A stretch of 41,563 nt of DNA from Ignavibacteriales bacterium (GTDB taxonomy: Bacteria > Bacteroidota > Ignavibacteria > UBA10030): the NCBI GenBank assembly GCA_026390585.1, contig JAPLFP010000370.1, forward strand, positions 1 to 41,563, in the 5' to 3' direction. A program made the position numbers and the translations under genes. Positions 7,952-38,300 of this stretch are shown in pieces. Within the stretch, counting starts at the first letter, position 1. Every line of letters starts with the position of its first letter. The notes under the pieces were generated by a model, which searched no databases, was not told where the DNA came from, and saw only the letters and a list, made by a program, of their open reading frames with translations.

Positions 7952-10519
7952 TTATTTCGCCCAAAGGATCAGACCAAGCTTGAGCGGATTCTCGAGAGCC
8001 TCGTGATGTGGGAGCACCCGGACCGTATGCCCCAGGCGCCCGCTCATTTCGAGCTTGTTGGTTCCAATGAAGTCGTACACGGATCCCGCGGGTGTGTCTT
8101 TCGGTTTCATCAGGACGACTTTCGGATGCTCGATCTCACCCTCGGCGTTCAGGTTCCCGTAGAACAACTCAACAGAGACATCGTCGGGTTTCAGATGTCC
8201 AAGATCGATGCGGGCATCGACAGTGAGCGTCTCGCCGACCTTCAGCGTTTTGTGGTTTTCTGCTTTGACTTCAACGATCTTTATCTCCTGCCAGTGCTGC
8301 CGAAGATGCTGTTTCCACACTGCGATCTGTTTCGCTCGGGCAAATCCATCATTGCTCAATTCACTGTAGCGGTCGAGAGCGGGTAGATACATCCGCTCTG
8401 TATACTCACGGACCATTCGATTCGTGTTGAAATCAGGTCCGATGGCCCGCATAGCACTTTTCATCTTCGCGATCCACTGACGAGGCAGGTCATCGGCACC
8501 GCGGGTGTAGTACAGGGGGACGATTTCCTTTTCGAGAAGATCGTACAGCGCATTTGACTCAATCTCATCCTGTGTCGGTTCGTCGGTGTATTCTTCGCCC
8601 CGCCCGATGGCCCAACCTGTGTTCACATTATAAGCTTCGTCCCACCACCCGTCCAGAACGCTGAGGTTGATGGCACCGTTGAGCGTTGCTTTCATACCGC
8701 TTGTTCCACTTGCCTCCAGGGGCCGGCGCGGCGTGTTGAGCCACACATCGACACCCTGCAGCATATAGCGGGCAACAACCATGTCGTAATCTTCGAGGAA
8801 CACCATTCTCCGGCGTGCATCGGGACGTCGTTCAAAATGTATGATCTGCCGAATGAGGTCCTTGCCGGGATTGTCGTGAGGATGCGCTTTACCGGCGAAA
8901 ATGATTTGCACAGGCCGATCCTTGTAAGCGAGGATTTTGAGAAGGCGTTCAACATCTTTCAGGATCAGCGTCGATCGCTTGTAGGTTGCGAAGCGCCGGG
9001 CGAAACCAATGGTGAGAGCCTGTGAATTCAGGATTTCATCAGCCTGTGCAAATTCAGACGGCGGCGCTCCTCGTGACTCGAGTTGTTTGCGCAGCCGACT
9101 TCGGGCAAACGCAACCAAGCGCTCGCGTCTTCTCTCGTGTGTTCTCCACAACTCTTCGTCGGGAATCTGATCGACACGGTTCCAGAGTGCATGGTCGCCC
9201 GCATCTTCCCGCCATCGGGGACCGAGGTAACGGTCATAGAGCCCTGCCATGTCGCGGCTGATCCACGACGGAGCGTGGACACCGTTCGTAATCGAAATGA
9301 TTGGGACCTCATTCGCGGGCAACCCCGGCCAGACATTCTTCCACATGTTGCGTGAAACGACGCCGTGAAGCTTGGCGACGCCGTTGGTGCTCCCCGCCAT
9401 CCTCAACGCGAGAACGGTCATGCAAAAGGCTTCCGTGTCGTTGTTAGGGTCTTGTCTGCCAAGACCATGGAATTCCTTCGGACTCAGTCCGAGATCGGGG
9501 TAGTATCGCTTGAAGTACTGCTCCATGAGATCGGGTGAAAAATAGTCGTTGCCTGCGGGAACGGGTGTATGTGTTGTGAAGGCAATGCCGGAGGTCGATG
9601 CTTCCCGTGCCTCGGCGAAGGAGAGTTTTTGTGTCTGCATGAGATCCTTGCAGCGCTCGAGGGAGAGAAATGCCGAGTGTCCTTCGTTCATGTGGTACAC
9701 TGAGGGATGAATACCCATCGCTTTCAGCGCACGGTATCCGCCGATACCCAAGAGGATCTCCTGTTTGATCCTCAGTTCACGGTCGCCTCCGTATAGCTGA
9801 TCTGTGATATCCTGGTCCTCCTGGCGGACATTCATCGGTATGTTGGTGTCGAGGAGGTACAGTGGGACTCTTCCGACCTGCACTTTCCAAATCTGAGCGT
9901 AGAGTGCACGGCCGTCGAGATCGACGGAGATGATTATCGGTCTGCCTGTCTGATCGAGCTTGAGGCGGATAGGCAGTGTGTAAAAGTCGTTTTCCGGATT
10001 CCGCTCCTGCTGCCATCCATCGATATTTAAGTATTGCCGAAAATATCCTTGTTGATACAACAATCCAACGCCGACCAGTGGCAGGCCGAGATCGCTTGCC
10101 GATTTCAGATGGTCGCCGGAAAGGACACCGAGCCCACCGGAATAGTTCTGCAGGCACTCCGTGATGCCGAACTCTGCAGAGAAGTACGCAATCTGGCCTT
10201 GCTCAACCTGAGAGTACGTCTTTCGGAACCATGTGGAACCAGTGTCGAGGTACTTTTTATAGCGATCGAACCCGCGTTCGAGTTGCGCGAGCAGAGCGTC
10301 ATCGCGGGAAGCTGCATTCAAGCGCTCTTGACTGATCATTCCAAGCATCAGCACAGGGTTGTGATTCGTTTTCTCCCAGAGGTCGGGATCCAAACGAATG
10401 AGGAGCTCCATCAGGTCGTGATCCCAGACCCAGAGCAGGTTATACGCGAGCTCATGAAGAGGTTCAAGTTCTTTCGGGAGAGCAGGAGCGACGGTGTAAG
10501 TATAGATGGGCCGAGTCAT
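7952..10519 (-). CDS. glgP: Alpha-glucan (glycogen/maltodextrin) phosphorylase
   Basis: This 855-residue protein matches the GT35 phosphorylases of the form with a DUF3417-type N-terminal region (about residues 1-110, LHELAYNLLWVWDHDLMELL). Conserved blocks include YFSAEFGITECLQNYSGGLG, VYHMNEGHSAFLSLER, ITNGVHAPSWI, IGFARRFATYKR and the pyridoxal-phosphate site GTSGMKATLNG, whose Lys should bind the cofactor. It releases glucose-1-phosphate from the non-reducing end of alpha-1,4-glucans, in the cytoplasm. AAGGGA lies 9-14 bases before the ATG. The isomerase gene lies 136 bases upstream on the same strand, a sensible partner once phosphoglucomutase has made glucose-6-phosphate. Length and motifs are normal and the frame is uninterrupted. 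Confidence 0.95.
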   Translation of the reverse strand: MTRPIYTYTVAPALPKELEPLHELAYNLLWVWDHDLMELLIRLDPDLWEKTNHNPVLMLGMISQERLNAASRDDALLAQLERGFDRYKKYLDTGSTWFRKTYSQVEQGQIAYFSAEFGITECLQNYSGGLGVLSGDHLKSASDLGLPLVGVGLLYQQGYFRQYLNIDGWQQERNPENDFYTLPIRLKLDQTGRPIIISVDLDGRALYAQIWKVQVGRVPLYLLDTNIPMNVRQEDQDITDQLYGGDRELRIKQEILLGIGGYRALKAMGIHPSVYHMNEGHSAFLSLERCKDLMQTQKLSFAEAREASTSGIAFTTHTPVPAGNDYFSPDLMEQYFKRYYPDLGLSPKEFHGLGRQDPNNDTEAFCMTVLALRMAGSTNGVAKLHGVVSRNMWKNVWPGLPANEVPIISITNGVHAPSWISRDMAGLYDRYLGPRWREDAGDHALWNRVDQIPDEELWRTHERRRERLVAFARSRLRKQLESRGAPPSEFAQADEILNSQALTIGFARRFATYKRSTLILKDVERLLKILAYKDRPVQIIFAGKAHPHDNPGKDLIRQIIHFERRPDARRRMVFLEDYDMVVARYMLQGVDVWLNTPRRPLEASGTSGMKATLNGAINLSVLDGWWDEAYNVNTGWAIGRGEEYTDEPTQDEIESNALYDLLEKEIVPLYYTRGADDLPRQWIAKMKSAMRAIGPDFNTNRMVREYTERMYLPALDRYSELSNDGFARAKQIAVWKQHLRQHWQEIKIVEVKAENHKTLKVGETLTVDARIDLGHLKPDDVSVELFYGNLNAEGEIEHPKVVLMKPKDTPAGSVYDFIGTNKLEMSGRLGHTVRVLPHHEALENPLKLGLILWAK

Positions 10520-10655
10520 AACAGTAGTCCCTTGTGGAAATCAGAAATGCGTTGGAACGATCCGGTTATCTCGTCAGGTCAATCGACTGAACGGAAACGA
10601 CTGAAAAGGATAACAAAGAAAAGTGAGAAAAACCATAAGCGGACTAGCGTAGTTT

Positions 10656-12428
10656 TCAACATAACGTGAAGGCTTCTCGCTCTTCGGAAAGTCGAGCTTT
10701 GTTCCATTGGGCAGGGCTGTTTTGAAGGCTACATGTCACCCCGAGATTTTCCGCTTCATGAATCCCGCATCTGAGCGGAATCCCAAGAGGCGGGACTTCT
10801 GCTTGGGGTCTCAAAACGAGGTCCCGAATGAAGATCCCGCTATGGGATTCCGCTCGTGAGCGGGATTCAGAAAGCGAACATTTCGGGACGACATTTATGT
10901 GCTCAACGCCCCATTGGTCGAACGAGTTCACATCCCAGAGAACTCCTTGCACGAAAATCTTGTGTTCGTAGAGGGCAATGAGCGAACCGAGTGTTCGGGG
11001 AGTCAGTTTTTTGAAGAGGATCGTGTTTGTCGGACGGTTTCCTGGGAACACTTTGTGCGGAAGGAGTCCCTCGAGTTCTGATCCATTCAGGCCCGAATTT
11101 TCGAGCTCTGCGCGTGCCTCATCTTCTGTCTTGCCTTTCATGAGAGCTTCGGTCTGCGCAAAAAAGTTCGACAGAAGAATTACATGATGCTCGCCAATCG
11201 GGTTGTGCGATTGCGACGGCGTCAGGAAATCGACCGGAATGAGCTTCGTCCCCTGATGCAGAAGCTGGAAGAACGCATGCTGGCCATTGGTGCCGGGTTC
11301 TCCCCAAATGATCGGACCGGTGGAATAGTCCACGCGTTGACCGGTTCGTGTCACCCCCTTGCCGTTACTCTCCATATCGCCTTGCTGTAAATACGCAGGA
11401 AACCGGTGGAGGTATTGATCATAGGGAATGATAGCGTGTGACTCAGCGCCGAAGAAGTTGTTGTACCAAACTCCGAGCAATCCGAGGAGAACCGGCAAGT
11501 TTGTTTCGAAGGGGGCGGTACGGAAATGTTGATCCATCTGGTGCGCGCCGAGAAGCAGCTCCTCAAAGTTCTCCATACCGATGGAGAGAGCGATGGAGAG
11601 TCCGATTGCCGACCACAGAGAATACCGGCCGCCGACCCAATCCCAGAACTCGAACATGTTCTTTGTGTCGATGCCAAACGCAGTAACTGCTTTCGCGTTT
11701 GTCGAGACTGCAACAAAATGCCTGGCGACAGTTGACGGATTTTGAGCCCGCTCCAGGAACCATTTCTTTGCCGACTCTGCATTGACGATTGTCTCTTGCG
11801 TTGTAAACGTCTTCGATGCGATGATGAAAAGCGCCGTTTCGGGGCTCAGTCGTTTCACTGTCTCTGCGATGTGGGTTCCGTCGACGTTTGAAACGAAGTG
11901 AACATTGAGACGAGGGTGGCCGTAGTGTTTCAGTGCTTCTGTCACCATAGCGGGGCCGAGATCCGATCCGCCGATGCCGATGTTGACGATATCGGTGATG
12001 GGTTGACCCGTGTAACCTTTCCACGCGCCGGTGCGGACTTGTTCAGTGAACGCACGAATATGGTCAAGCACTTTGTTCACCGAGGGCATGACATCGACGC
12101 CATCGACGATGATCGGCGTGTTGGACCGGTTGCGAAGGGCGATGTGAAGAACGGAGCGATGTTCGGTTGAGTTGATCTTTTCACCAGTGAACATTTGTTC
12201 GGTCCGATGTTTCAAATCCGCTTCACGAGCGAGGTCAAACAGAAGCGACATTGTCCGTTCGGAAATACGATTCTTGGAATAGTCGAGGAGAAAATCGTTC
12301 CACCGGACTGAGAACTTACCAAACCGTTGTGGATCGGATGCGAACATCTCACGCATGTGTTGAGGAGCGATCTCTCGTTGATGCAGTTCGAGAGCCTTCC
12401 ATGCGGGCGATTGAGTCAGTTTCGACAT
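10656..12428 (-). CDS. pgi: Glucose-6-phosphate isomerase with C-terminus replaced by a repeat (probably inactive)
   Basis: Residues 1-509 are a typical isomerase: [17 protein letters not shown], the SIS-domain [22 protein letters not shown], the catalytic Glu in GDMESNGKG, the catalytic His in [17 protein letters not shown], and NSFDQWGVE. Family members continue as LGK, whose Lys is the third catalytic residue (Lys514 in E. coli, Lys518 in rabbit), then about 40 more residues including SSTNGL. Here residue 510 onward becomes [13 protein letters not shown] and 81 unrelated residues encoded by a dispersed palindromic repeat (below). The lost 3' end is not found in any frame downstream. The length, 590 against about 549, therefore misleads. 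The enzyme converts glucose-6-phosphate to fructose-6-phosphate; this copy should be inactive or severely impaired. It may be a pseudogene or an assembly artefact. Confidence 0.9.
10739..10900. repeat. Dispersed palindromic repeat, copy A, inside the 3' end of pgi
   Basis: The stretch is packed with short inverted units of the GGGATTC / GAATCCC and GAGCGG / CCGCTC kind. The core TTCCGCTTCATGAATCCCGC (10749-10768), then ATCTGAGCGG, recurs with few changes at 26229-26257 and 21880-21910. The left edge of homology is uncertain. The right edge falls where isomerase homology stops, at about 10901. Confidence 0.7.
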
Positions 12429-14148: not shown

Positions 14149-16218
14149 CTATTTCTTTGGACGCACAAGGAATCTCTCCTCAAACGTTGGCGCTTTTCCT
14201 GCGAGAGTCAGAAAGACATCCAACGGAACCACCTCGAACTCCGGCCCCAGCTTGCTCAGAATTCCTTTGACACGTTTGACATCACTGTATTCCCGCACAT
14301 GGATGAGCAGGAAATACGGCCGCTTGCCGTTGATCTTCCCAAGTTCTTCCAGATCCGCAACTGCATCGGCCTCGGGGCGCTCGGGTGAAAGGTAATAGTC
14401 ATACGAAATGAACGGCTTTCCGTCCTTCACGGTGAATGTGAATGCGGGAGCATAGCCGTTGACAAACCCGATCGCATTTGGCATGCCTTTGTAGTAAGCG
14501 TCAACGATGTCTTTCGTCAGATCCGGGTTGCCTTCAACGGTTGCGCCCTCAGAGTAGTCCATGATCTCGAAGACCTTCAGATCGAGGACATCCATATCCT
14601 CTTTTGCTTTCGTGATCAACGGCGGTAGGAGCTTTGGCGGTACGACCTTGGGGTACATGTAACCAGGGCCCGAGAGGCAGCCGATGAAATAATCATTGGG
14701 TGTGGCCAGCGTGTAGAAATACTCTGCCATCGCCGGTGCCATCCAGACATAATTCATCAAAACTTCCCATGCGTATGGGATTTCTCCTCTACCAGGTTTC
14801 AGCCATGCGCCAAGACCGATACCGTCCGTCTGAATGCAGGTGACATAGACTTTCTTCTCAGGCGTGTAAACCTTGCCGGGAACAACGTGATGATTGTTGG
14901 TAAACTTAAATCCCGGCGAGACTGGCACCTGGCTGGCAAAGGTAACATTGGGGAGTGTGTTCAATCCCTCGACGCGCAATCCGAAACTCGACGTCAGCTT
15001 CACGTGCTCCCGTTCCAAATCTTTGGCATATGAATGCCATCCCATCACCATTGCCATCGAATTCATCTGGCTCAGGATCTTCTTCGCGAGCTGGTACTCC
15101 AGCGTATCTGTTACCCTGCTGGAGAGATCATTGAAGAACACTTGTTTCGCAACTCCCCAATCGGCCACCCCGGGCTTCATCACCGTTCCATGCTCGCCTC
15201 CGAGCCAAATGATGTAATCCTTGCTGCATCGTTGCCAGTACTGATCGTAGGCCCATTGATAGATCTGGGCGTCGGTCTGACCAGCGAACTTGCCGCGGAA
15301 ATCTGCAACGGGTTTGAGGCCCGCGCTCTCCACCATGGGAATCATATCTTCGCTGACAACAACGGAGCGCTCGAGTCCGGCAACCGTAAAGGCAACGATG
15401 AGCGACGTGCGGACGGATTTGTCCCAGACAACATACCCTTTGACGAATTTCTTCAGCGCCTGCAGAGCGGCCTGTGGGGTTCGAAGCTCGGTGAATGTGA
15501 AGTTCTTCTTCTCCTTGTAGAAGTTGAAGACCGACGTAACGTATGTGAAATCCCAATTGTCGGGATAAAGGAGATACAGGCGTGGCGCATCAATGTTGGC
15601 AAGGCCCTGCAGACTGATCAGGAACGCCTGCGTGCCGAGTTTTCCCTGCACTTGCCAATTGTCTTCCAGACGGATGAAATAGGCATCTCTGGCCCCGTCA
15701 CGTTTCAAGATGTACTTCACGGGCGGACCAGTCGTGCGGGTGGATCGGTTAACCGTGTAGGTCATGGTCTCTTTGTCGGCAGACAGTTCATAGAGATGCG
15801 TCGCGTGAACAGGGCTGAGTCCCTGAGAGCCATGGATGGAATATGATTCGTCGAGCTTCAAGACGTTCCCTTCCTGCTCCCAGGAAGCCTTGATCTGCCT
15901 CGATCCGTTGACAGGCATCATCAATCCCATGAAGACATTGCTTGGCCATGCGCGCTCGTGAATGGGTACATTGTTGGTCACTCCGCCAAGTTTGAGCACA
16001 AGAGAATCGAGAAAAAAACGACTCGTTCCCCACTTTTGCAGAAGTGTGACGCTCGATGGCTGCTGGCGGAATTCAACGGACATTGTCCCAAAGAGAGCGA
16101 TATCATGGCTCGCCTGAGGTATGACAACCCACTTGCCACTGAATGCAGGGTCTCCCTGGCTTGCGGCAAGAAGCGGGAAGAGGAGGAGAATCAGAGGAAA
16201 GAATAGTCTCGTTTTCAC
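14149..16218 (-). CDS. GxGYxYP-domain protein (putative glycoside-hydrolase-like), copy 1
   Basis: This 689-residue protein begins with a GTG at 16218, with GGGAG about eight bases upstream, and a signal peptide (FFPLILLLFPLLAASQG). Residues about 20-170 form a beta-rich lipocalin-like region beginning FSGKWVV. The remainder fits the GxGYxYP N- and C-terminal families, with TQAFLISLQGLANIDAPRLYLLYP, WLGGEHGTVMKPGVADWG and the signature GPGYMYP. It ends in a modified polysaccharide-deacetylase-like part (YFLLIHVREYSDV). The family is predicted to be a secreted or periplasmic carbohydrate-active protein with no characterised activity that I know of. A paralogue of nearly equal length (688 residues) lies at 29494-31560. 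The sigma-factor-like gene lies 83 bases upstream. Confidence 0.88.
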   Translation of the reverse strand: MKTRLFFPLILLLFPLLAASQGDPAFSGKWVVIPQASHDIALFGTMSVEFRQQPSSVTLLQKWGTSRFFLDSLVLKLGGVTNNVPIHERAWPSNVFMGLMMPVNGSRQIKASWEQEGNVLKLDESYSIHGSQGLSPVHATHLYELSADKETMTYTVNRSTRTTGPPVKYILKRDGARDAYFIRLEDNWQVQGKLGTQAFLISLQGLANIDAPRLYLLYPDNWDFTYVTSVFNFYKEKKNFTFTELRTPQAALQALKKFVKGYVVWDKSVRTSLIVAFTVAGLERSVVVSEDMIPMVESAGLKPVADFRGKFAGQTDAQIYQWAYDQYWQRCSKDYIIWLGGEHGTVMKPGVADWGVAKQVFFNDLSSRVTDTLEYQLAKKILSQMNSMAMVMGWHSYAKDLEREHVKLTSSFGLRVEGLNTLPNVTFASQVPVSPGFKFTNNHHVVPGKVYTPEKKVYVTCIQTDGIGLGAWLKPGRGEIPYAWEVLMNYVWMAPAMAEYFYTLATPNDYFIGCLSGPGYMYPKVVPPKLLPPLITKAKEDMDVLDLKVFEIMDYSEGATVEGNPDLTKDIVDAYYKGMPNAIGFVNGYAPAFTFTVKDGKPFISYDYYLSPERPEADAVADLEELGKINGKRPYFLLIHVREYSDVKRVKGILSKLGPEFEVVPLDVFLTLAGKAPTFEERFLVRPKK

Positions 16219-16301
16219 TTTTCAGACTCCCTTTGCAGGTTTACTGGAAGCAGATAGTAACATCGGCAAAACAAATCATTGCTCGCGTCGATCAACATTG
16301 T

Positions 16302-21747: not shown

Positions 21748-22052
21748 GAGAGATCTCCTTTAACAGTGTGTTCAACTCAAAGATACTCTCTGGCTAACAG
21801 TTTGTTGCGCCCTTTTCGGCGGACGGAGGTCGAGCATCGGTGAATGGCGCCTGGAAATGCGTTTGAAAACCAACGTTTGTTCCGCTCTCTGAATCCCGCC
21901 ATATTGCGGGATCCTGGACAGCGGGACAAGAGCGGTACCACAAAGACTCGAAGGCACAAGGGACAAAAAGGCAGCAAAAACGAAAGTCATCATCCCGCTT
22001 GGAGTCTTAGTGACTTAGTGGCCAGCCACTTTGACCAACTCTCTAGAAGCAT
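21748..22052. other. Intergenic region holding the operon promoter zone and repeat remnants
   Basis: No gene is visible in these 305 bases. The last 25 hold the ribosome binding site of the DUF5668 gene. Around 21941-22025 is a CACAAAGACTCGAAGGCACA stretch, with TTAGTGACTTAGTGG further on: the loosely palindromic kind of repeat often left between genes. I could not fix a promoter by eye. Confidence 0.4.
21880..21910. repeat. Dispersed palindromic repeat, copy C (short)
   Basis: TTCCGCTCTCTGAATCCCGC followed by CATATTGCGGG. It shares TTCCGCT, TGAATCCCGC and the internal GCGGG/CCCGC palindrome with the copies at 10749 and 26229. Confidence 0.6.
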
Positions 22053-26113: not shown

Positions 26114-26689
26114 CAGGATTGCTCTTTCACGAGATATTCATGTGCCCATTTCTTTTAGGAAAAGTCCCGCTGTACGGGATCCGACTCATTTGATTTATAT
26201 CTGTTGATGTCGGAAAATCGGGCAAAAGTTCCGCTTTGTGAATCCCGCTTATGAGCGCCACCATCGAGCGGGAAAAACTTGTCCCGAAATTCCCGCCTGC
26301 CTCGTGAAAGGCTAAAGTGTCGGCGGGCAGGTAACTCCCCGCGATAAGGCCACACCCGCACAAGCCGTATTGTCGCCCCACCAGGGGACACAGGTAATTT
26401 CAGACGAACTACAATCCGGGGCGATAATAAACGCGCCGTACGGCCGTCCACCCCACCTGCCGAAATTTCGGGACGGGCTTAGTGCTTGGACAGATTGTCC
26501 TGCTCAAAACCAGCGGGACTCCCTGCAATGACTTGGAGAAGGGTGTTATTGCTCCAAATATCTCTCTGCGTTCTTTGCGACTTTGCGTGATTGTTTTTGA
26601 GTCGGTTTCAATTTACGGCCTAAGATAAGAAATCAGAAGAAGTCAAACAACTCAGCACTCATGTTCCTCTTGCCATCGGTGGGAAATTT
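26114..26689. other. Repeat-rich intergenic region between divergent genes
   Basis: No gene is visible in these 576 bases. The stretch 26160-26480 is full of palindromes: GTCCCGC-TGTAC-GGGAT near 26163, the copy B core at 26229-26257, CCCGCCTGCC matched by GGCGGGCAG (26293-26334), and a self-complementary CGAAATTTCG near 26461. Around 26565-26590 lies CTCTGCGTTCTTTGCGACTT followed by TGCGTG, a sequence type often left between genes in many bacteria. A promoter for the glycosyltransferase-like gene should be in the last 100 bases but was not identified. Confidence 0.5.
26229..26257. repeat. Dispersed palindromic repeat, copy B core
   Basis: TTCCGCTTTGTGAATCCCGC then TTATGAGCG, matching copy A (10749-10778) at all but a few positions. 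TTGTCCCGAAATTCCCGC about 40 bases further on also resembles the TCGTCCCGAAATG at the pgi junction. Confidence 0.65.
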
Positions 26690-29493: not shown

Positions 29494-31560
29494 CTACCTA
29501 TTGTCGGTCTCCATATATCTTTCCTTGAACGTTGGATTCTCCCCGGCCATTTTCAGAAACACATCCAGGGGAACCACCTGAAAATCGGGTCCCAATTTGT
29601 CACAGATCGATTTCACTCTCGCAACGTCGCTATATTCACGCACATGCACGAGCAGGAAATACGGACGAACGCCGTTCAGTGTTGCGAGCTCTTCGAGATC
29701 TGCTGCGGCCTCCTCTTCGGATTTCTCCGCTGAGAGGTAATAGTCGTACGATATGAACGGACGCTTATCCCTGACCGCGAACGTGAACGATGCATGGTAG
29801 CCGTTCAGGAATCCCAGGATATCCGGCATTGCTTTGTAGTACGCATCGACGATGTCCTTCGTCAGCTCGTTGTTGCCTCCATCCATCTTCTCAGCGGAAT
29901 AGTCCATAATCTCGAAGACGTTGATATCAAGCGTATCCATGAGAGCTTTCGCCCGTTCGAGCTCCTTGCCGAGGAGGTTCTTGGGAAATGCTTTCGGATA
30001 CATGTAGGATGAACCCGAGAGGGCGCCGATGAAAAGGTCGTTCGGCGTTGCCTGGGAGTAGAAGTACTCCATCATGGCGGGGGAGAGGTACGAGAATTTC
30101 ATCGACGTTTCCCACGCGTACGGAATCGATCCGCGTCCGGGTTTCACCCAGGCACCGAGACCGAGGCCGTCGGTCTGGACAAGAGCAAGATACACTTTGT
30201 TCTCGGGCGTATAGGTTTTTCCCGGCTCGACGTTGTGGTGGTTCTTGTACTTGAAGCCCGGTGTCGGCGGAACGCGGTAGAGGAAGCTTGTATTCGGCAG
30301 ATTGTGCAGGCCCTCAACGCCCAGGCCAAACGACGACGTAACGGTCACCCACTCTTCTTCCATGTCTTTCTTATAGGAATGCCAGCCCATCACCTGGGCG
30401 AGTGGTTTCATTTCAGAGAGAATCTTGCGCGTGAGGCCGTACTCCAGCGTATCGGTTTCCCGCGCAGAGAGATCTGTGAAGAACACTTTCTTGACCACGC
30501 CAAAATCAGCGACTCCAGGTATCATCACTGTGCCGTGTTCGCCGCCGAGCCAGATGATGAAATCCTTGGAGCATCGCTGCCAGTATCGTTGGTAGGCCCA
30601 AGTATAGATTTCATAGTCCGATTTGCCCGTGAACTTGCCGCGGAAATCCTCGATCTGTTTTAATCCCACTTTCTCCGCCATCGGGATCATATCTTCAGTG
30701 ATCACGATCCCTTTGTCAAGTCCCGCGAGTGTGTACGACACGATCAGGGATGTGCGGACGTTCTTGTCCCAAACAATGTACCCTTTGATCTGGGATTTGA
30801 AGACCTGCAGAGCCTGTTCCAGTGACCCCAGACGCGTGAAATAGATATGCCGCTGTTTCTCGAGATACGTGAACAACTCGCCGGTATAATTGAACGAGAA
30901 CTTTGGACCGTAGAGGAAATAGAGTGCCGGCTTTGTTTCGTTGACGATTCCCTGCAGTGAGATGAAACACGCCTGCGTGGAAAGCCCCGACCTGATGTCC
31001 CAGTCGTCGTTCATCTGATATACGTAGGCGCTATTGTTGTTGTCCATCCGCTTGAAGAGGTATTTCATCGGCGGACCGGACTTCCTGCTGTTCCTGGCGA
31101 TCGTGTAGGTCAGGAGATTCTTGTCGGCCGAAAGCTCGTAGGCCGAGTGAACATCGAGGTGCTCCATCCCCTGTGACGTCATCACATCATATCTCTCGCT
31201 GATCGACAGGATGTTCGGTTTCGCCCATGTGGCCGTCACTTCTTTTTTCCCCCCCGGTGCGAGCTTCAGTCCCATAAAGAAATTGGCCAGGAACCCGCGG
31301 TCCTTCACGATGATGTTGTTCTTCGAGCCATCGGTCCTGAGCGTGATAGTCTCTGTGGTCGGCCGCTTCGGACCGTATTCTTTGTAGATGGTGATTTCAT
31401 TGGGTTTCATCGTGATCTGTGCGGTCACGTTCCGGAAGAAATCGTAGTCTGCGCTTCCGTCCTTCGTGAATATCCACTTTCCCTGGAACGCCATGTCCTG
31501 TGCTGACGCTCCTGTGAAGATGAGGAGGGAGATGAAAAGGCTTCGAATGAAAGATTTCAT
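29494..31560 (-). CDS. GxGYxYP-domain protein, copy 2, with degenerate signature
   Basis: The chosen ATG at 31560 has GGAGAACC upstream, giving 688 residues with a signal peptide (FIRSLFISLLIFTGASAQ). It aligns with the protein at 14149-16218 along its whole length: FQGKWIF, ELSADKNLLTYTI, TQACFISLQGIVN, IIWLGGEHGTVMIPGVADFG, EGLHNLPN, KPGRGSIPYAWE, and YFLLVHVREYSDVARV. The signature that names the family reads GSSYMYP here against GPGYMYP in copy 1, so the second Gly is Ser. The role is unknown; a secreted carbohydrate-active function is the family prediction. A longer frame from 31620 would place 20 residues before the signal peptide. No sigma-factor gene adjoins this copy. Confidence 0.88.
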   Translation of the reverse strand: MKSFIRSLFISLLIFTGASAQDMAFQGKWIFTKDGSADYDFFRNVTAQITMKPNEITIYKEYGPKRPTTETITLRTDGSKNNIIVKDRGFLANFFMGLKLAPGGKKEVTATWAKPNILSISERYDVMTSQGMEHLDVHSAYELSADKNLLTYTIARNSRKSGPPMKYLFKRMDNNNSAYVYQMNDDWDIRSGLSTQACFISLQGIVNETKPALYFLYGPKFSFNYTGELFTYLEKQRHIYFTRLGSLEQALQVFKSQIKGYIVWDKNVRTSLIVSYTLAGLDKGIVITEDMIPMAEKVGLKQIEDFRGKFTGKSDYEIYTWAYQRYWQRCSKDFIIWLGGEHGTVMIPGVADFGVVKKVFFTDLSARETDTLEYGLTRKILSEMKPLAQVMGWHSYKKDMEEEWVTVTSSFGLGVEGLHNLPNTSFLYRVPPTPGFKYKNHHNVEPGKTYTPENKVYLALVQTDGLGLGAWVKPGRGSIPYAWETSMKFSYLSPAMMEYFYSQATPNDLFIGALSGSSYMYPKAFPKNLLGKELERAKALMDTLDINVFEIMDYSAEKMDGGNNELTKDIVDAYYKAMPDILGFLNGYHASFTFAVRDKRPFISYDYYLSAEKSEEEAAADLEELATLNGVRPYFLLVHVREYSDVARVKSICDKLGPDFQVVPLDVFLKMAGENPTFKERYMETDNR

Positions 31561-31690
31561 TGGTTCTCCATGTGGGTTGCTTGTTGTACGTTGTTCAGTG
31601 TGATGCAAGATTTGGCTCACAAAACCCGTTCCATGTTCGTGTCAAGCCTCGGTCTTAACGCAGTGGAGAGGATACAGAGCAGTCCGATCA

Positions 31691-32698: not shown

Positions 32699-33274
32699 TC
32701 AATAATACTTCTCAATGCCACCGAATCCAAATTGCCTATTTTTCTCGGTCATCTCGATGAAGTATCTCAGACGTTTCGTGAACACTTGCGGCCTGTTGCG
32801 GGCGGCGTCTATAAACGCAAGGCGGATCCGTATGTATGGTTGTGAGAATGTTTGAAAATTCTTCCAGGCTTTCTTGTTTGCCTTGATCGCCTTCAGGATG
32901 TTGGGCGGCATCTCAAACTGGTCCTCTCCAAGATTCCCCAAAGTTACCAACACTTCATCGAGGACTTTGCCCTGCTTGACCAGCGCCCTTAGCCGTTCCT
33001 TATTCGCTTGTGAGTATGGAGTCTTGGGATTTCTCAAAGAAAACCTTTGCGCAAATCTGTCCTCTTCAATGCTCTTGACGATGCTATCGATCCAACCAAA
33101 GCAGAGTGCTTCTTCTACTGCGTCGTTGTAAGGAATGCGCGGTTTTCCAGTATGCTTCTTGTAGTACACGAGCCAGACTTCTTTCTCGGACTTGTGGTGC
33201 CTCTTGAGCCAATCACGCCAGTCTCTGTGATTCGTCACATACAGAAGTTTGGCTTCGTCTAAGCTGCGTTTCAT
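32699..33274 (-). CDS. YdeI/OmpD-associated family protein
   Basis: The 191-residue product from the ATG at 33274 (GGAGAG just upstream) matches the YdeI/OmpD-associated group. The N-terminal part has WRDWLKRHHKSEKEVWLVYY and AVEEALCFGWIDSIVKSIEEDRFAQRFSLRNPKTPYS. The C-terminal helical part has FQTFSQPYIRIRLAFIDAARNRPQ followed by KRLRYFIEMTEKNRQFG. Members were named for a link to antimicrobial-peptide or bacteriocin resistance in enterobacteria, but biochemical function is not established. It is cytoplasmic. It ends about 100 bases before the DinB-like gene on the same strand. Confidence 0.88.
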   Translation of the reverse strand: MKRSLDEAKLLYVTNHRDWRDWLKRHHKSEKEVWLVYYKKHTGKPRIPYNDAVEEALCFGWIDSIVKSIEEDRFAQRFSLRNPKTPYSQANKERLRALVKQGKVLDEVLVTLGNLGEDQFEMPPNILKAIKANKKAWKNFQTFSQPYIRIRLAFIDAARNRPQVFTKRLRYFIEMTEKNRQFGFGGIEKYY

Positions 33275-33334
33275 AGACTCTCCAACCATCTAGCGAAATT
33301 AGAAGAACAACGTATTGGAAGCTCAACATTGATG

Positions 33335-33383
33335 AGAATGATCCGCCCATTATGTGGAACACAGGATCGCGATCCGTATAACC
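33335..33383. repeat. 49-bp direct repeat, left copy
   Basis: Begins AGAATGATCCGCCCATT and ends CGATCCGTATAACC. It differs from the copy at 35714-35762 at only three of 49 positions, in the same orientation. The two copies bracket the cupin, PIG-L and NagB-like genes. Confidence 0.85.
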
Positions 33384-34746: not shown

Positions 34747-35673
34747 TCAATGCATCTCCACCTTGCAGGTGCCAAGTGCGGGCCGGAAGAAGTTGAACTG
34801 GACGTTGGGGTGATCCGCGAGCAGCGACATTGGCACAGACGAATCCGGAATGCGTTTGGATATCATCAAGGACGTCAAGCGTATTCCGAACGGGTTGTCG
34901 TGATGTCCCGGGTGCCAGATGGAAACCTTCTCGGCTTTCCACGTCTCGACCGGCCCCACCGTAACGGCCTGATGGGGCACGTTCTGGACGGCGCCGCCGC
35001 CGGAGGTTCGCGCGTTCTGCATAAGGGTCAAGGGGTGCAAATCAACGACCCGAGTGCCGAGTTTCCTATATTCCTCGGGAAGCGGGGGAGCGTGTTGGTA
35101 CGCACCCTCGCGCTTCGGCGGATCATTGAATGCCCAGTGTTTGACCTCTCCCTGGCCGCCCTGCATGACCACACAGCGCACCGAATCCCAGCTTTCGATA
35201 AACGCCTTCGCATCGACCGAGGGGAAGTGGATGTTCTCCACGGGCATTGCCAGTTTGGGATTGATCCGGTTGAAACACAGTTCCATGTCGGCTCGGGCAA
35301 AGCCAAGTGGGAAATCGATGGAAACCTCCTTGCCAGCGACAACCCATTCGTCCATTCCCCAAAAGTGGCAGTGCTTAAGGGAAATCCCCAGTTCGTTCAC
35401 CATGCGTGCCACCAGGGGAAGCTGCTCCGTCGGGCCGATCGGCCCGCAGATACCAGCAGGACGGCCTTCCGTGGCCTGCTGCCATGCTGTGATATATTCC
35501 AGGGCCTCCGCCAGGTAGAACTCCTCGATGCTGTCGAAGAACCTTATTGCGAATCCCTGCCTTGCAAGATCCAGAATATTCTTCTCGGTCAGTGATGCGG
35601 CCTCGTCGAGAAGTTCCCTGTCCAATGTGGTGTAGTCCCACCACGCCGGTGCCACCTTGCTCATATTCCTCAT
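34747..35673 (-). CDS. Glucosamine-6-phosphate deaminase-like (NagB/SugarP_isomerase) protein
   Basis: The 308-residue protein from the ATG at 35673 fits the NagB/RpiA isomerase fold: [19 protein letters not shown] in the phosphate-binding position, [13 protein letters not shown] with the catalytic-loop Asp, FNRINPK, the [15 protein letters not shown] segment matching NagB GGIGxDGHIAFNEP, and [10 protein letters not shown]. The match to the last signature is loose (GEVKHWAF), so the substrate may not be glucosamine-6-phosphate itself. Such enzymes convert amino-sugar phosphate to keto-sugar phosphate and ammonia. The PIG-L deacetylase follows after one base. The frame continues upstream to 35781 through the 49-bp repeat, which is unlikely to be translated. 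An ATG three codons later (35664) has GAGGA upstream. Confidence 0.82.
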
Positions 35674-35713
35674 CGTTTTCTTCTCGCTCCTTGTTTCCGG
35701 TCGAACAGTGAAT

Positions 35714-35762
35714 AGAATGATCCGCCCATTTTGTGGAACACAGGATAGCGATCCATATAACC
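35714..35762. repeat. 49-bp direct repeat, right copy
   Basis: Starts AGAATGATCCGCCCATT and ends CGATCCATATAACC, matching the copy at 33335-33383 at 46 of 49 positions. It lies about 60 bases beyond the stop of the HsdM-HsdS gene and 40 bases upstream of the NagB-like start. Confidence 0.85.
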
Positions 35763-35825
35763 CGCCGCTGCCACACTTCATCCTACTGCAACAATCCCTC
35801 CGATCTCAGCCACTTCTTCCATGGC

Positions 35826-38300
35826 TCACGCCTCCGCCGGGGCCGGATCCTCCTCCCCCCAGACGCGCGCGAGTGTGGCCTGGATCTTCTTCTCGAAGCG
35901 CTCGATCAGTTCGCGGTTGGCGGCGACCAGCGCCTGCTCGGCTTCGATCTCGGCGACGATGGATTGCTGGGTAGCGAAAGCCGGGAGGGGTAACTTTATC
36001 GAAGTGATCATACCCAAAGTTAAATACTTTGTTAAACCGCCAATGGATTTTTGTTTCAAATCGAGCAGGTTTGCATTTAAAACATATTTCAAAATGCCGT
36101 ATGTCATCTTGTTCAAGTATTCAGTTTTTATGGTGATAACATAGGTTCTTTGATATGCATTGAATTTTCCATAATAGTGCTTCACATCAAAATTTCCGTT
36201 TGCATTGTTACCACTCAGAAGAATTGCTTCACAGTCGAATGCATATTTATCAATTTGGAAAACTTCTTTTGAACATGTAAAGAACGGGTAGATCCCGCCT
36301 GGTACCGCCGCGTTGGAGTCTAATTTTCCCGTCTTGATATCGCACACCTCCCCCAGCTCCACCATCGGCCACTCCGGGTGAATCGGGATGTGGGGCCGGT
36401 AGTTGTCGAGGACGGCGCGGGCACCGTTGATGACTTTCTGGTAGCCCTCGATCTCCGCCACAATCTCCTTCTGCACCTCCAGTGGCGGCAGGGGGATTTG
36501 GAAGTTCTCCACGTAGTCGCGCGGCACGCGTTGCAAGCCTCCAGTGCCGGTCATTTGAGCGACAGCTGTATCTCGAAAAATTGGATGCATGACGCAGAAA
36601 TATATCCATTCAGGCAAGGCCTGCCCGCTGCTTCGCAGCACGTAGAACTCACTGGAGCCAAATCCTATTCCATTCAGGAGGTCGTGTGCGATGCCGGCTT
36701 TGCCGTTCTCAAAGCAAGGGGTGACTTTTGCGAGGAGGACATCGTTGTCCTCGAAGTAGCTGTAACTCGCCGAAACTTCCGAGAGCTGCTTTTCTTCGCT
36801 TGGCTGAAACGCAATACGGTGCTCGTTAAGGTCGGCCATTGGTACAAACGAAACACGGGTATCAGGCGGCAAAGCGGCCAGCTGGCTCTTTCGCGGATTG
36901 ATCATGCATATGTCACCAATTTTTACCAACGCAAAAACGTGACTCTTCGTTACCCCCTCCCGATACCGCTCCCCGCTGAGGTTGTAGTCCCCATTCGCCG
37001 CAATCTTCTCCTTCTCCACGATGAGGCCAAGCGTGGGCTGGAAGTCAGCCACGGATTCCCCGGCCCGCAGGCAGAGCAGATATTCGCCGATCTCGGCATG
37101 AGCTTGCGGCAGGTTGTTCTTGTCAATCTCGCGCCGCTGTGCGCCGAGGCCGAAGCCGTCGTTTTCGACTTTGAAAAAGGCGATGGTGTTGGCCCTCTTG
37201 GCCAGCGTCTTGTCGAGGATCAGTATGGAGGTCTTGACGCCGGAATAGGGATTGAACACGCCCGCCGGCAGAGAGACGACGGCGACGAGGTATTCCTCCA
37301 CGAGCATCTTGCGCAACTGCGTGTAGGCGTTCTGGCTCTGGAAGATGATCCCCTCGGGCACGATGATGCCGGCGCGTCCGTTGGGCGTGAGATGCTCGGC
37401 CATGTAGTCCACGAACAGCACTTCGCTGCGTTTAGATTGCACAGAAAAGCGGTTGTGCGGTTTGATGCCCCCCTTCGGCGACATGAAGGGCGGATTGGCG
37501 AGGATGACGTCGGCGTACTCGTTCCACTTGTCCTGCGAGGTGAGCGTATCGTACTCGGCGATGTGCGGCGCGGCGAAGCCGTGTAGGTACATGTTCACCA
37601 ACGAAAGACGCACCATATCGGGCGAAATGTCGTAGCCCTTGAAGTTCTGCGCGAGGCGGCCCTTTTCGTCGGGGGTCAGTGTGCTGTTGCCCTTCTTGTC
37701 AATGTTGACCTTGAGGATGTGCTTGTAGGACGAGATCAGGAATCCCGCTGTTCCACAAGCGGGATCAAGCACGGTCTCGGTCTTCTTCGGGTCGAGGATC
37801 TCGACCATGAAATCAATGATGTGGCGCGGGGTGCGGAACTGTCCGGCATCTCCCTGTGAGCCGAGCACGGAGAGCAGATACTCAAAGGCGTCACCAAGGC
37901 GTTCACTGTGATCGTAGTTGAACTCGTCGATGACCTTGAGGAACATCTTGAGCGTTTCCGGGTCGCGATAGGGCAGATAGGCGTTCTTGAAGATATCGCG
38001 GAAGAGCAGCGGGATGCCGGGGTTCTCCGGCATCTTGGCGATCGCTTCGGCGTAGAGGTTCAGAGTCTCGTGGCCCCCCAGGCCGGAGCGCATGAGCTTG
38101 GCCCAGCCGTAGCGGGCAAATTCTTTTGCAAAAAACTTGCGCTTCCCGCCGAACTCCTCGCTCTCGGCGTCCATGTCGTCCATGAACTTGTAGATCAGGG
38201 CGATGGTGATCTGCTCGACCTGGCTCTTGGGGTCGGGCACTTTGCCGACGAGGATATCGCGGGCAGTGTCGATGCGGCGTTTGGTGTCGGTGTCGAGCAT
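35826..38300 (-). CDS. Type I restriction-modification fused methyltransferase/specificity subunit (HsdM-HsdS)
   Basis: The 824-residue protein joins two normally separate subunits. Residues 1 to about 440 are HsdM: N-terminal helical domain, the SAM site VLDPACGTAGFL (179-183 region) and the catalytic NPPF at 269-272, for N6-adenine methylation. The rest is HsdS: first target-recognition domain at about 455-600, conserved spacer helix (LEVQKEIVAEIEGYQKVING), second recognition domain at about 640-780 and a terminal helix (QQSIVAEIEAEQALVAANRE). It should bind a bipartite DNA site and both methylate it and direct the HsdR nuclease. The second recognition domain (36000-36300) is visibly AT-rich beside GC-rich flanks, as expected for domain exchange. 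Stop and start lie nine bases from the DUF1016 gene. Confidence 0.93.
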   Translation of the reverse strand: MLDTDTKRRIDTARDILVGKVPDPKSQVEQITIALIYKFMDDMDAESEEFGGKRKFFAKEFARYGWAKLMRSGLGGHETLNLYAEAIAKMPENPGIPLLFRDIFKNAYLPYRDPETLKMFLKVIDEFNYDHSERLGDAFEYLLSVLGSQGDAGQFRTPRHIIDFMVEILDPKKTETVLDPACGTAGFLISSYKHILKVNIDKKGNSTLTPDEKGRLAQNFKGYDISPDMVRLSLVNMYLHGFAAPHIAEYDTLTSQDKWNEYADVILANPPFMSPKGGIKPHNRFSVQSKRSEVLFVDYMAEHLTPNGRAGIIVPEGIIFQSQNAYTQLRKMLVEEYLVAVVSLPAGVFNPYSGVKTSILILDKTLAKRANTIAFFKVENDGFGLGAQRREIDKNNLPQAHAEIGEYLLCLRAGESVADFQPTLGLIVEKEKIAANGDYNLSGERYREGVTKSHVFALVKIGDICMINPRKSQLAALPPDTRVSFVPMADLNEHRIAFQPSEEKQLSEVSASYSYFEDNDVLLAKVTPCFENGKAGIAHDLLNGIGFGSSEFYVLRSSGQALPEWIYFCVMHPIFRDTAVAQMTGTGGLQRVPRDYVENFQIPLPPLEVQKEIVAEIEGYQKVINGARAVLDNYRPHIPIHPEWPMVELGEVCDIKTGKLDSNAAVPGGIYPFFTCSKEVFQIDKYAFDCEAILLSGNNANGNFDVKHYYGKFNAYQRTYVITIKTEYLNKMTYGILKYVLNANLLDLKQKSIGGLTKYLTLGMITSIKLPLPAFATQQSIVAEIEAEQALVAANRELIERFEKKIQATLARVWGEEDPAPAEA

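Follow-up and report, generated by a model that had tools for sequence, protein, structure and literature searches.

A glucose-6-phosphate isomerase gene whose 3' end appears to have been lost beside a palindromic repeat in an Ignavibacteriales bacterium

The locus and its neighbourhood

The window, that is the whole stretch of 41,563 nucleotides of Ignavibacteriales DNA that was analysed, carries an open reading frame of 590 codons that starts as a gene for glucose-6-phosphate isomerase (PGI), pgi, and ends in residues unrelated to any PGI (Table 1). The isomerase part matches the Pfam PGI profile PF00342 with 783 bits over the ORF stretch 49-514, and NCBIfam NF001211 with 841.9 bits over residues 2-510. 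The Pfam match takes in profile positions 1-461 of 486 only and does not cover the whole model, while the full 1-486 span is found in 21 of the 29 matches outside the window's own genome (20 genomes). When 29 solved PGI sequences were compared, the best 13 aligned to ORF residues 510-513 and no further, and the weaker ones drifted to 527. Residues E353 and H384 align with Glu357 and His388 of pig PGI (1gzd_A), and both are invariant in a 31-sequence alignment, A1, that has no invariant column beyond E509. The structure alignment took in 30 of 69 usable relatives. In one of the other genomes, a single contig (G014:C31; L041, L059) holds two equal-scoring pgi matches in opposite orientation about 57 kb apart, either a recent duplication or an assembly artefact.

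Table 1. Features of the pgi locus, in window coordinates
Feature	Position	Strand	Basis
Open reading frame, 590 aa	10656-12428	-	
pgi, intact part, residues 1-509, glucose-6-phosphate isomerase	10902..12428	-	PF00342, NF001211, invariant columns, dN/dS
Junction left by the inferred deletion (about 110 nt), exact base ambiguous by a few bases	10901..10902	-	Comparison with G003
Likely remnant of the former pgi end, ACA TAA (Thr, stop), shifted by one base from the present frame	10895..10900	-	Comparison with G003
81 unrelated residues and stop, out-of-frame read through repeat and spacer	10656..10901	-	ORF translation
Copy of dispersed palindromic repeat, long hairpin, pgi-glgP spacer	10726..10893	-	Genome matches, fold, G003 array
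glgP-type alpha-glucan phosphorylase, 3' neighbour of pgi	7952..10519	-	PF00343 Phosphorylase, PF11897 DUF3417

The order pgi then glgP is also found in four genomes of the same genus (G001, G002, G003 and G004) and in G015. A genome of the same family, G007, has another neighbour and no glgP behind pgi, and the contig of G005 breaks off within the small gene that follows pgi and gives no view of the order. Judged from these contigs, the order is a rule at the genus level and not a family-wide one. The small gene directly behind pgi in G001, G002, G004, G005 and G015 has a haem-binding motif (PF14376 in the copy of G002). It is absent from the window (10520-10901) and from the 19 kb fetched from G003, when compared with L143:9103-9675, and the repeat lies there instead.

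Some other features of the window deserve mention. Two related genes for putative glycoside hydrolases of the GxGYxYP type (PF14323 and partner domains) lie at 14152-16221 and 29497-31641. They share a 137-nt direct repeat, and the product of the second is 53% identical to the G003 orthologue of the first. An 824-aa ORF (35826-38300, reverse strand) combines an N6 DNA methylase domain (PF02384) with two PF01420 stretches (type I specificity domain) and looks like an HsdM-HsdS fusion. A 59-nt direct repeat, 90% identical, is found at 33325-33383 and 35704-35762, 2379 bases apart, one copy in the 5' part of ORF 34747-35781 and the other just upstream of ORF 32699-33289, both on the reverse strand.

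The lost C-terminus and the new tail

The last normal PGI residue is Glu509 (GAG, 10904-10902), and 590-509 = 81 unrelated residues follow it. Residues 510-512 are HIN, as compared to LGK in PGIs (Leu516-Gly517-Lys518 in the numbering of 1gzd_A). In at least 90% of the A1 sequences LGKQLA is kept directly after E509, the window being an exception. Among 108 loci from other genomes, LGK stands at the same place in 95 and YGK in one (L092), and the remaining 12 show no motif match, some of these being fragments. A preliminary description of this DNA had put the end of homology after residue 509, at base 10902, with 81 unrelated residues beyond it and the LGK with the catalytic lysine lost; all this agrees with what we find, and the alignment with the Pgi of relatives that it proposed shows most of them continuing with LGK and the window not.

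A search for the missing tail in the window's own assembly gave a best match of E 1.55, as compared to E 6.4e-13 or lower in five of five same-genus controls. With the positive controls working, the search gave no sign of a displacement of the tail to another place in the same assembly, and the earlier statement that the 3' end is not present downstream holds.

The 81-residue tail matched no NCBIfam family. An open run of this length is nothing special, 329 or 418 of 5000 simulated sequences (7-8%) had one. In the predicted structure the core is mostly confident, and 60 of the 81 tail residues have a pLDDT below 50, as counted by the listed segments. The lost part includes Lys518 and the C-terminal helices, which keep the dimer together. 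A study of wheat PGI (PMC9436075) describes the active-site lysine, numbered both 516 and 518 there, as contacting the sugar, and reports that the enzyme without its C-terminal domain is inactive and found as monomers or aggregates. From the lost parts, the truncated copy is most likely inactive.

It is conceivable that the protein with its new tail still works as a PGI, or that it is selected for a non-catalytic role. The preserved catalytic Glu and His, together with the ordinary purifying selection on residues 1-509 described below, would fit with this, but the loss of the lysine and the dimer helices, the poorly modelled tail without a family and the reported effect of domain truncation on wheat PGI all speak against it, and the selection signal is equally well explained if the lesion is recent. 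We consider such a function very improbable.

The palindromic repeat

The repeat was searched as 10726-10897 or 10680-10905. In its own genome it gave at least 77 matches, which merge into 40 places, as a palindrome matches on both strands. Without merging, G003 had at least 43 matches, the four remaining members of the genus had 3-27, and the five genomes from further off that were searched had 0 to 3. The RNA fold of 10720-10905 is one long hairpin (-97.3 kcal/mol, z -10.6). Compared with known RNAs, the repeat gave only three matches to microRNA families, all below the gathering score, and these were taken as chance hairpin matches. Matches to the Y1 transposase family PF01797, the kind of enzyme encoded in REP/RAYT systems, counted independently of the repeat positions, number six in the window's own genome and 2-14 in five relatives.

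The repeat had been said to occur at least twice more within the window. This holds only in part, as the search gave, beyond the reverse complement of the repeat itself, two partial matches of roughly 50 nt each, 26224-26273 (76%, E 5e-5) and 21878-21926 (73%, E 0.007).

To see the repeat in its surroundings, 30 loci were fetched, representing 24 distinct places, as six were fetched twice. The repeat lies mostly between long ORFs. Only pgi and one other ORF of 150 aa or more have their 3' end in it, and the repeat as a habitual gene tail was rejected. That other ORF (L019) is 155 aa long, and most of it overlaps a 447-aa ORF in a different frame. At four further places the repeat overlaps the 5' end of an ORF (L003, L007, L010/L023 and L025), perhaps as the result of over-long starts, and several ORFs shorter than 150 aa cross it.

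Comparison with the closest relative

The closest relative found, G003, has an intact pgi whose product is 88% identical to the window protein. Its repeat array starts one base past the pgi stop and runs toward glgP, with three clear units and one degenerate unit. The window has a single large repeat unit there, and on the far side of the array the two genomes resemble each other. It is most likely, on this comparison, that the repeat was already behind pgi before the lesion.

In G003 pgi ends with ACA TAA and the first repeat unit begins one base on. After the last Glu codon the window reads C ACA TAA, again with the repeat one base on, which makes 10897-10895 the likely original stop. The distance from the Glu codon to the stop is 114 nt in G003 as compared to 4 nt in the window, and about 110 nt appear to have been deleted inside pgi, given an equal length of the ancestral tail. 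As this number is not divisible by three, the former stop is out of frame and the ORF goes on for 81 codons through repeat and spacer. The 24 nt past the junction are identical to the G003 gene end in 20 positions, and the next-best sites in G003 are repeat units further on, with 18 and 17 of 24. The gap between 20 and 18 is small, so the right end of the deletion could reach into the array; even then the repeat would be older than the lesion. The locus thus combines intact syntenic orthologues with a single frameshifting lesion, the pattern of a pseudogene formed by recent deletion.

The preliminary description held that the repeat had replaced the C-terminus. This is most likely mistaken, as the array lies behind an intact pgi in G003 and the window keeps a likely stop out of frame. 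An insertion of the repeat into pgi, or its arrival within a new gene end, has some appeal, because about 8 bases separate the last homologous codon from the point where the frame runs into the repeat, and in-frame insertions of palindromic elements into Rickettsia genes are described in PMC10969869. A pure insertion would, however, leave the displaced tail downstream, and the tail search was empty; G003 has such repeats at the same place with pgi intact, and only one other long ORF among the 24 places ends in a copy. An origin of this kind seems to us very unlikely.

Selection and the age of the lesion

Compared with G003, the window pgi has a dN of 0.057 and a dS of 1.00, giving a dN/dS of 0.057 in an alignment of 518 codons, of which a few lie ahead of the ATG. 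The dN/dS of glgP is 0.049. Seven genomes entered the test for pgi, and only three that for glgP (G000, which is the window's own genome, G003 and G002). With five outgroups the window branch has 15-20 private residues and the G003 branch 13-24, and the excess is not significant. At sites where the other six sequences agree, the window pgi has 6 changes and G003 has 2, a weak hint at slackened selection on the window copy.

A neutral branch at dS 0.5 would gain several hundred changes. If the branch is half of the pairwise dS, these counts would bound an unselected phase to about 3% of the branch at most. Normal purifying selection on the rest of pgi implies that the break is either very young or a fault of the assembly.

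Is the lesion an assembly fault?

In the latter case the cells would have a normal pgi, and the draft would show a chimeric or minor-variant path beside a long hairpin. The assembly is a draft in 379 contigs, and at 4 of the 40 places a contig (C335, C93, C319 and C145) starts no more than 160 bases from the repeat, which suggests that the assembly tends to break at the repeat. The rest of pgi is without clear decay, and this is equally expected from an assembly fault.

Several observations point the other way. Had the assembly jumped at a dispersed repeat, an unrelated neighbour would be the most likely result, and the order pgi-glgP agrees with the genus (though not with G007, from the same family), which argues against a distant misjoin; a distant misassembly at the repeat was for this reason judged unlikely. 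Judged from G003, there is no long direct repeat at the junction that would allow a k-mer jump. Of five stretches compared with G003 as a measure of the quality of the draft, three are gap-free, namely glgP and stretches of 771 bp and 2069 bp from two further genes; one has a single-base gap just ahead of a likely ATG, and in the fifth there are two gaps, of 1 and 8 bases. By this measure the draft is not rich in indels overall. Furthermore, a stretch of 4342 bases in contig C41 has a match of equal length in G003. Taken together, an artefact of assembly or strain is possible but doubtful, and from these comparisons the lesion is rather likely a real deletion in the cells.

A second isomerase

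PF00342 is found once in the window's own assembly, and searches of the assembly for a second copy and for a cupin-type PGI were empty. PF10432, the bifunctional phosphoglucose/phosphomannose isomerase (PGI/PMI), also has no match in the assembly, and its genus position coincides here with a gap between contigs. The enzyme is present in all five same-genus relatives (NF006426, TIGR02128; related to the solved 1tzb). In four of them, G002-G005, it lies behind an HPr gene and a ptsI-type gene, the families being shown for G003. In the window's own genome the match to this block runs out where ptsI ends on C41, with 207 bases of the contig left, and is taken up again at the extreme end of C29, within the gene that follows the PGI/PMI place. 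The G001 copy is itself split over two contigs. A loss of PGI/PMI from this genome is not supported, as the place of the gene is a gap, and the gene is probably present but unassembled. The search for a second pgi or a PMI-type enzyme proposed earlier thus gave none in the assembly, but revealed an enzyme general among the same-genus relatives with its place missing here. A gene census of the draft could wrongly call PGI/PMI absent, with the gap lying between C41:1-207 and the end of C29 (L169, L170).

In 61 genomes, the window's own included and some of them incomplete, PF10432 was found in 53 and PF00342 in 28, of which three (G035, G056 and G059) matched over positions 96-309 only. Thirty genomes have PF10432 alone, 23 have both, five have PF00342 alone (the window's own among them) and three have neither. 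With about half of the genomes in the first group, life without a classical PGI looks common in this order. If PGI/PMI were truly absent from the window's own genome, a dead pgi would be hard to explain.

Discussion

The explanation that we consider probable is that a recent deletion of about 110 nt near the 3' end of pgi removed codon 510 to nearly the last one and shifted the original stop out of frame by one base. Translation would then run 81 codons through the palindromic intergenic repeat that was already behind the gene, and the product of 590 aa, without Lys518 and the C-terminal helices, would most likely be inactive. The interconversion of glucose-6-phosphate and fructose-6-phosphate would probably be taken over by the bifunctional PGI/PMI. 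The nearby hairpin may have promoted the deletion, but this is only a guess. The missing end, the gene order, the array of G003, the ACATAA out of frame, the ordinary selection on the remainder of pgi and the contig gap are direct observations, and what we infer from them is a deletion that exists in the cells, a dead enzyme and the presence of the PGI/PMI gene. The options named at the outset, an inactive Pgi with perhaps a second enzyme or a wrong assembly, turn out to be the right ones. A further variant, in which PGI/PMI carries the flux and the 590-aa protein is real and selected, as a PGI without C-terminal domain and lysine that is either non-catalytic or works with its repeat-encoded tail, seems to us very improbable.

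If the deletion is real, the locus shows the loss of one isomerase while under way, where usually an unrelated second enzyme exists, and it would be an early catch of a recurrent step, as in 30 of the 61 genomes the second kind stands alone. If the deletion is not real, the case warns against reading gene loss from one draft assembly beside repeats.

The locus resembles the palindromic elements of Rickettsia, as described in PMC10969869, in that a dispersed palindromic repeat, here of about 170 nt, is read as part of a protein. It differs in that the repeat most likely was behind the gene already, without any insertion, and in that the other copies at the 24 places are rarely in frame at the 3' ends of genes. 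An insertion of the Rickettsia type would have the displaced part of the gene downstream, and here no tail was found in the window's own assembly and the array of G003 lies behind an intact pgi.

With the classical PGIs (PF00342, NF001211) the window protein shares residues 1-509, in which the catalytic Glu and His align with those of the solved enzymes, but it lacks the LGK with Lys518 and the C-terminal domain and has the 81 out-of-frame residues instead. The bifunctional PGI/PMI (PF10432) would supply the same reaction, but it belongs to another family and is unseen in the window's own assembly, where its place is a gap.

Short frameshifting deletions are an ordinary origin of bacterial pseudogenes. 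The window pgi is like these in its single recent lesion, its intact syntenic orthologues and its plausible redundant enzyme, and the sole difference is that the new frame here happens to run through a repeat. Seen against these known systems, the locus is best read as an ordinary recent pseudogenisation in a probably redundant gene, or as a local fault of the assembly.
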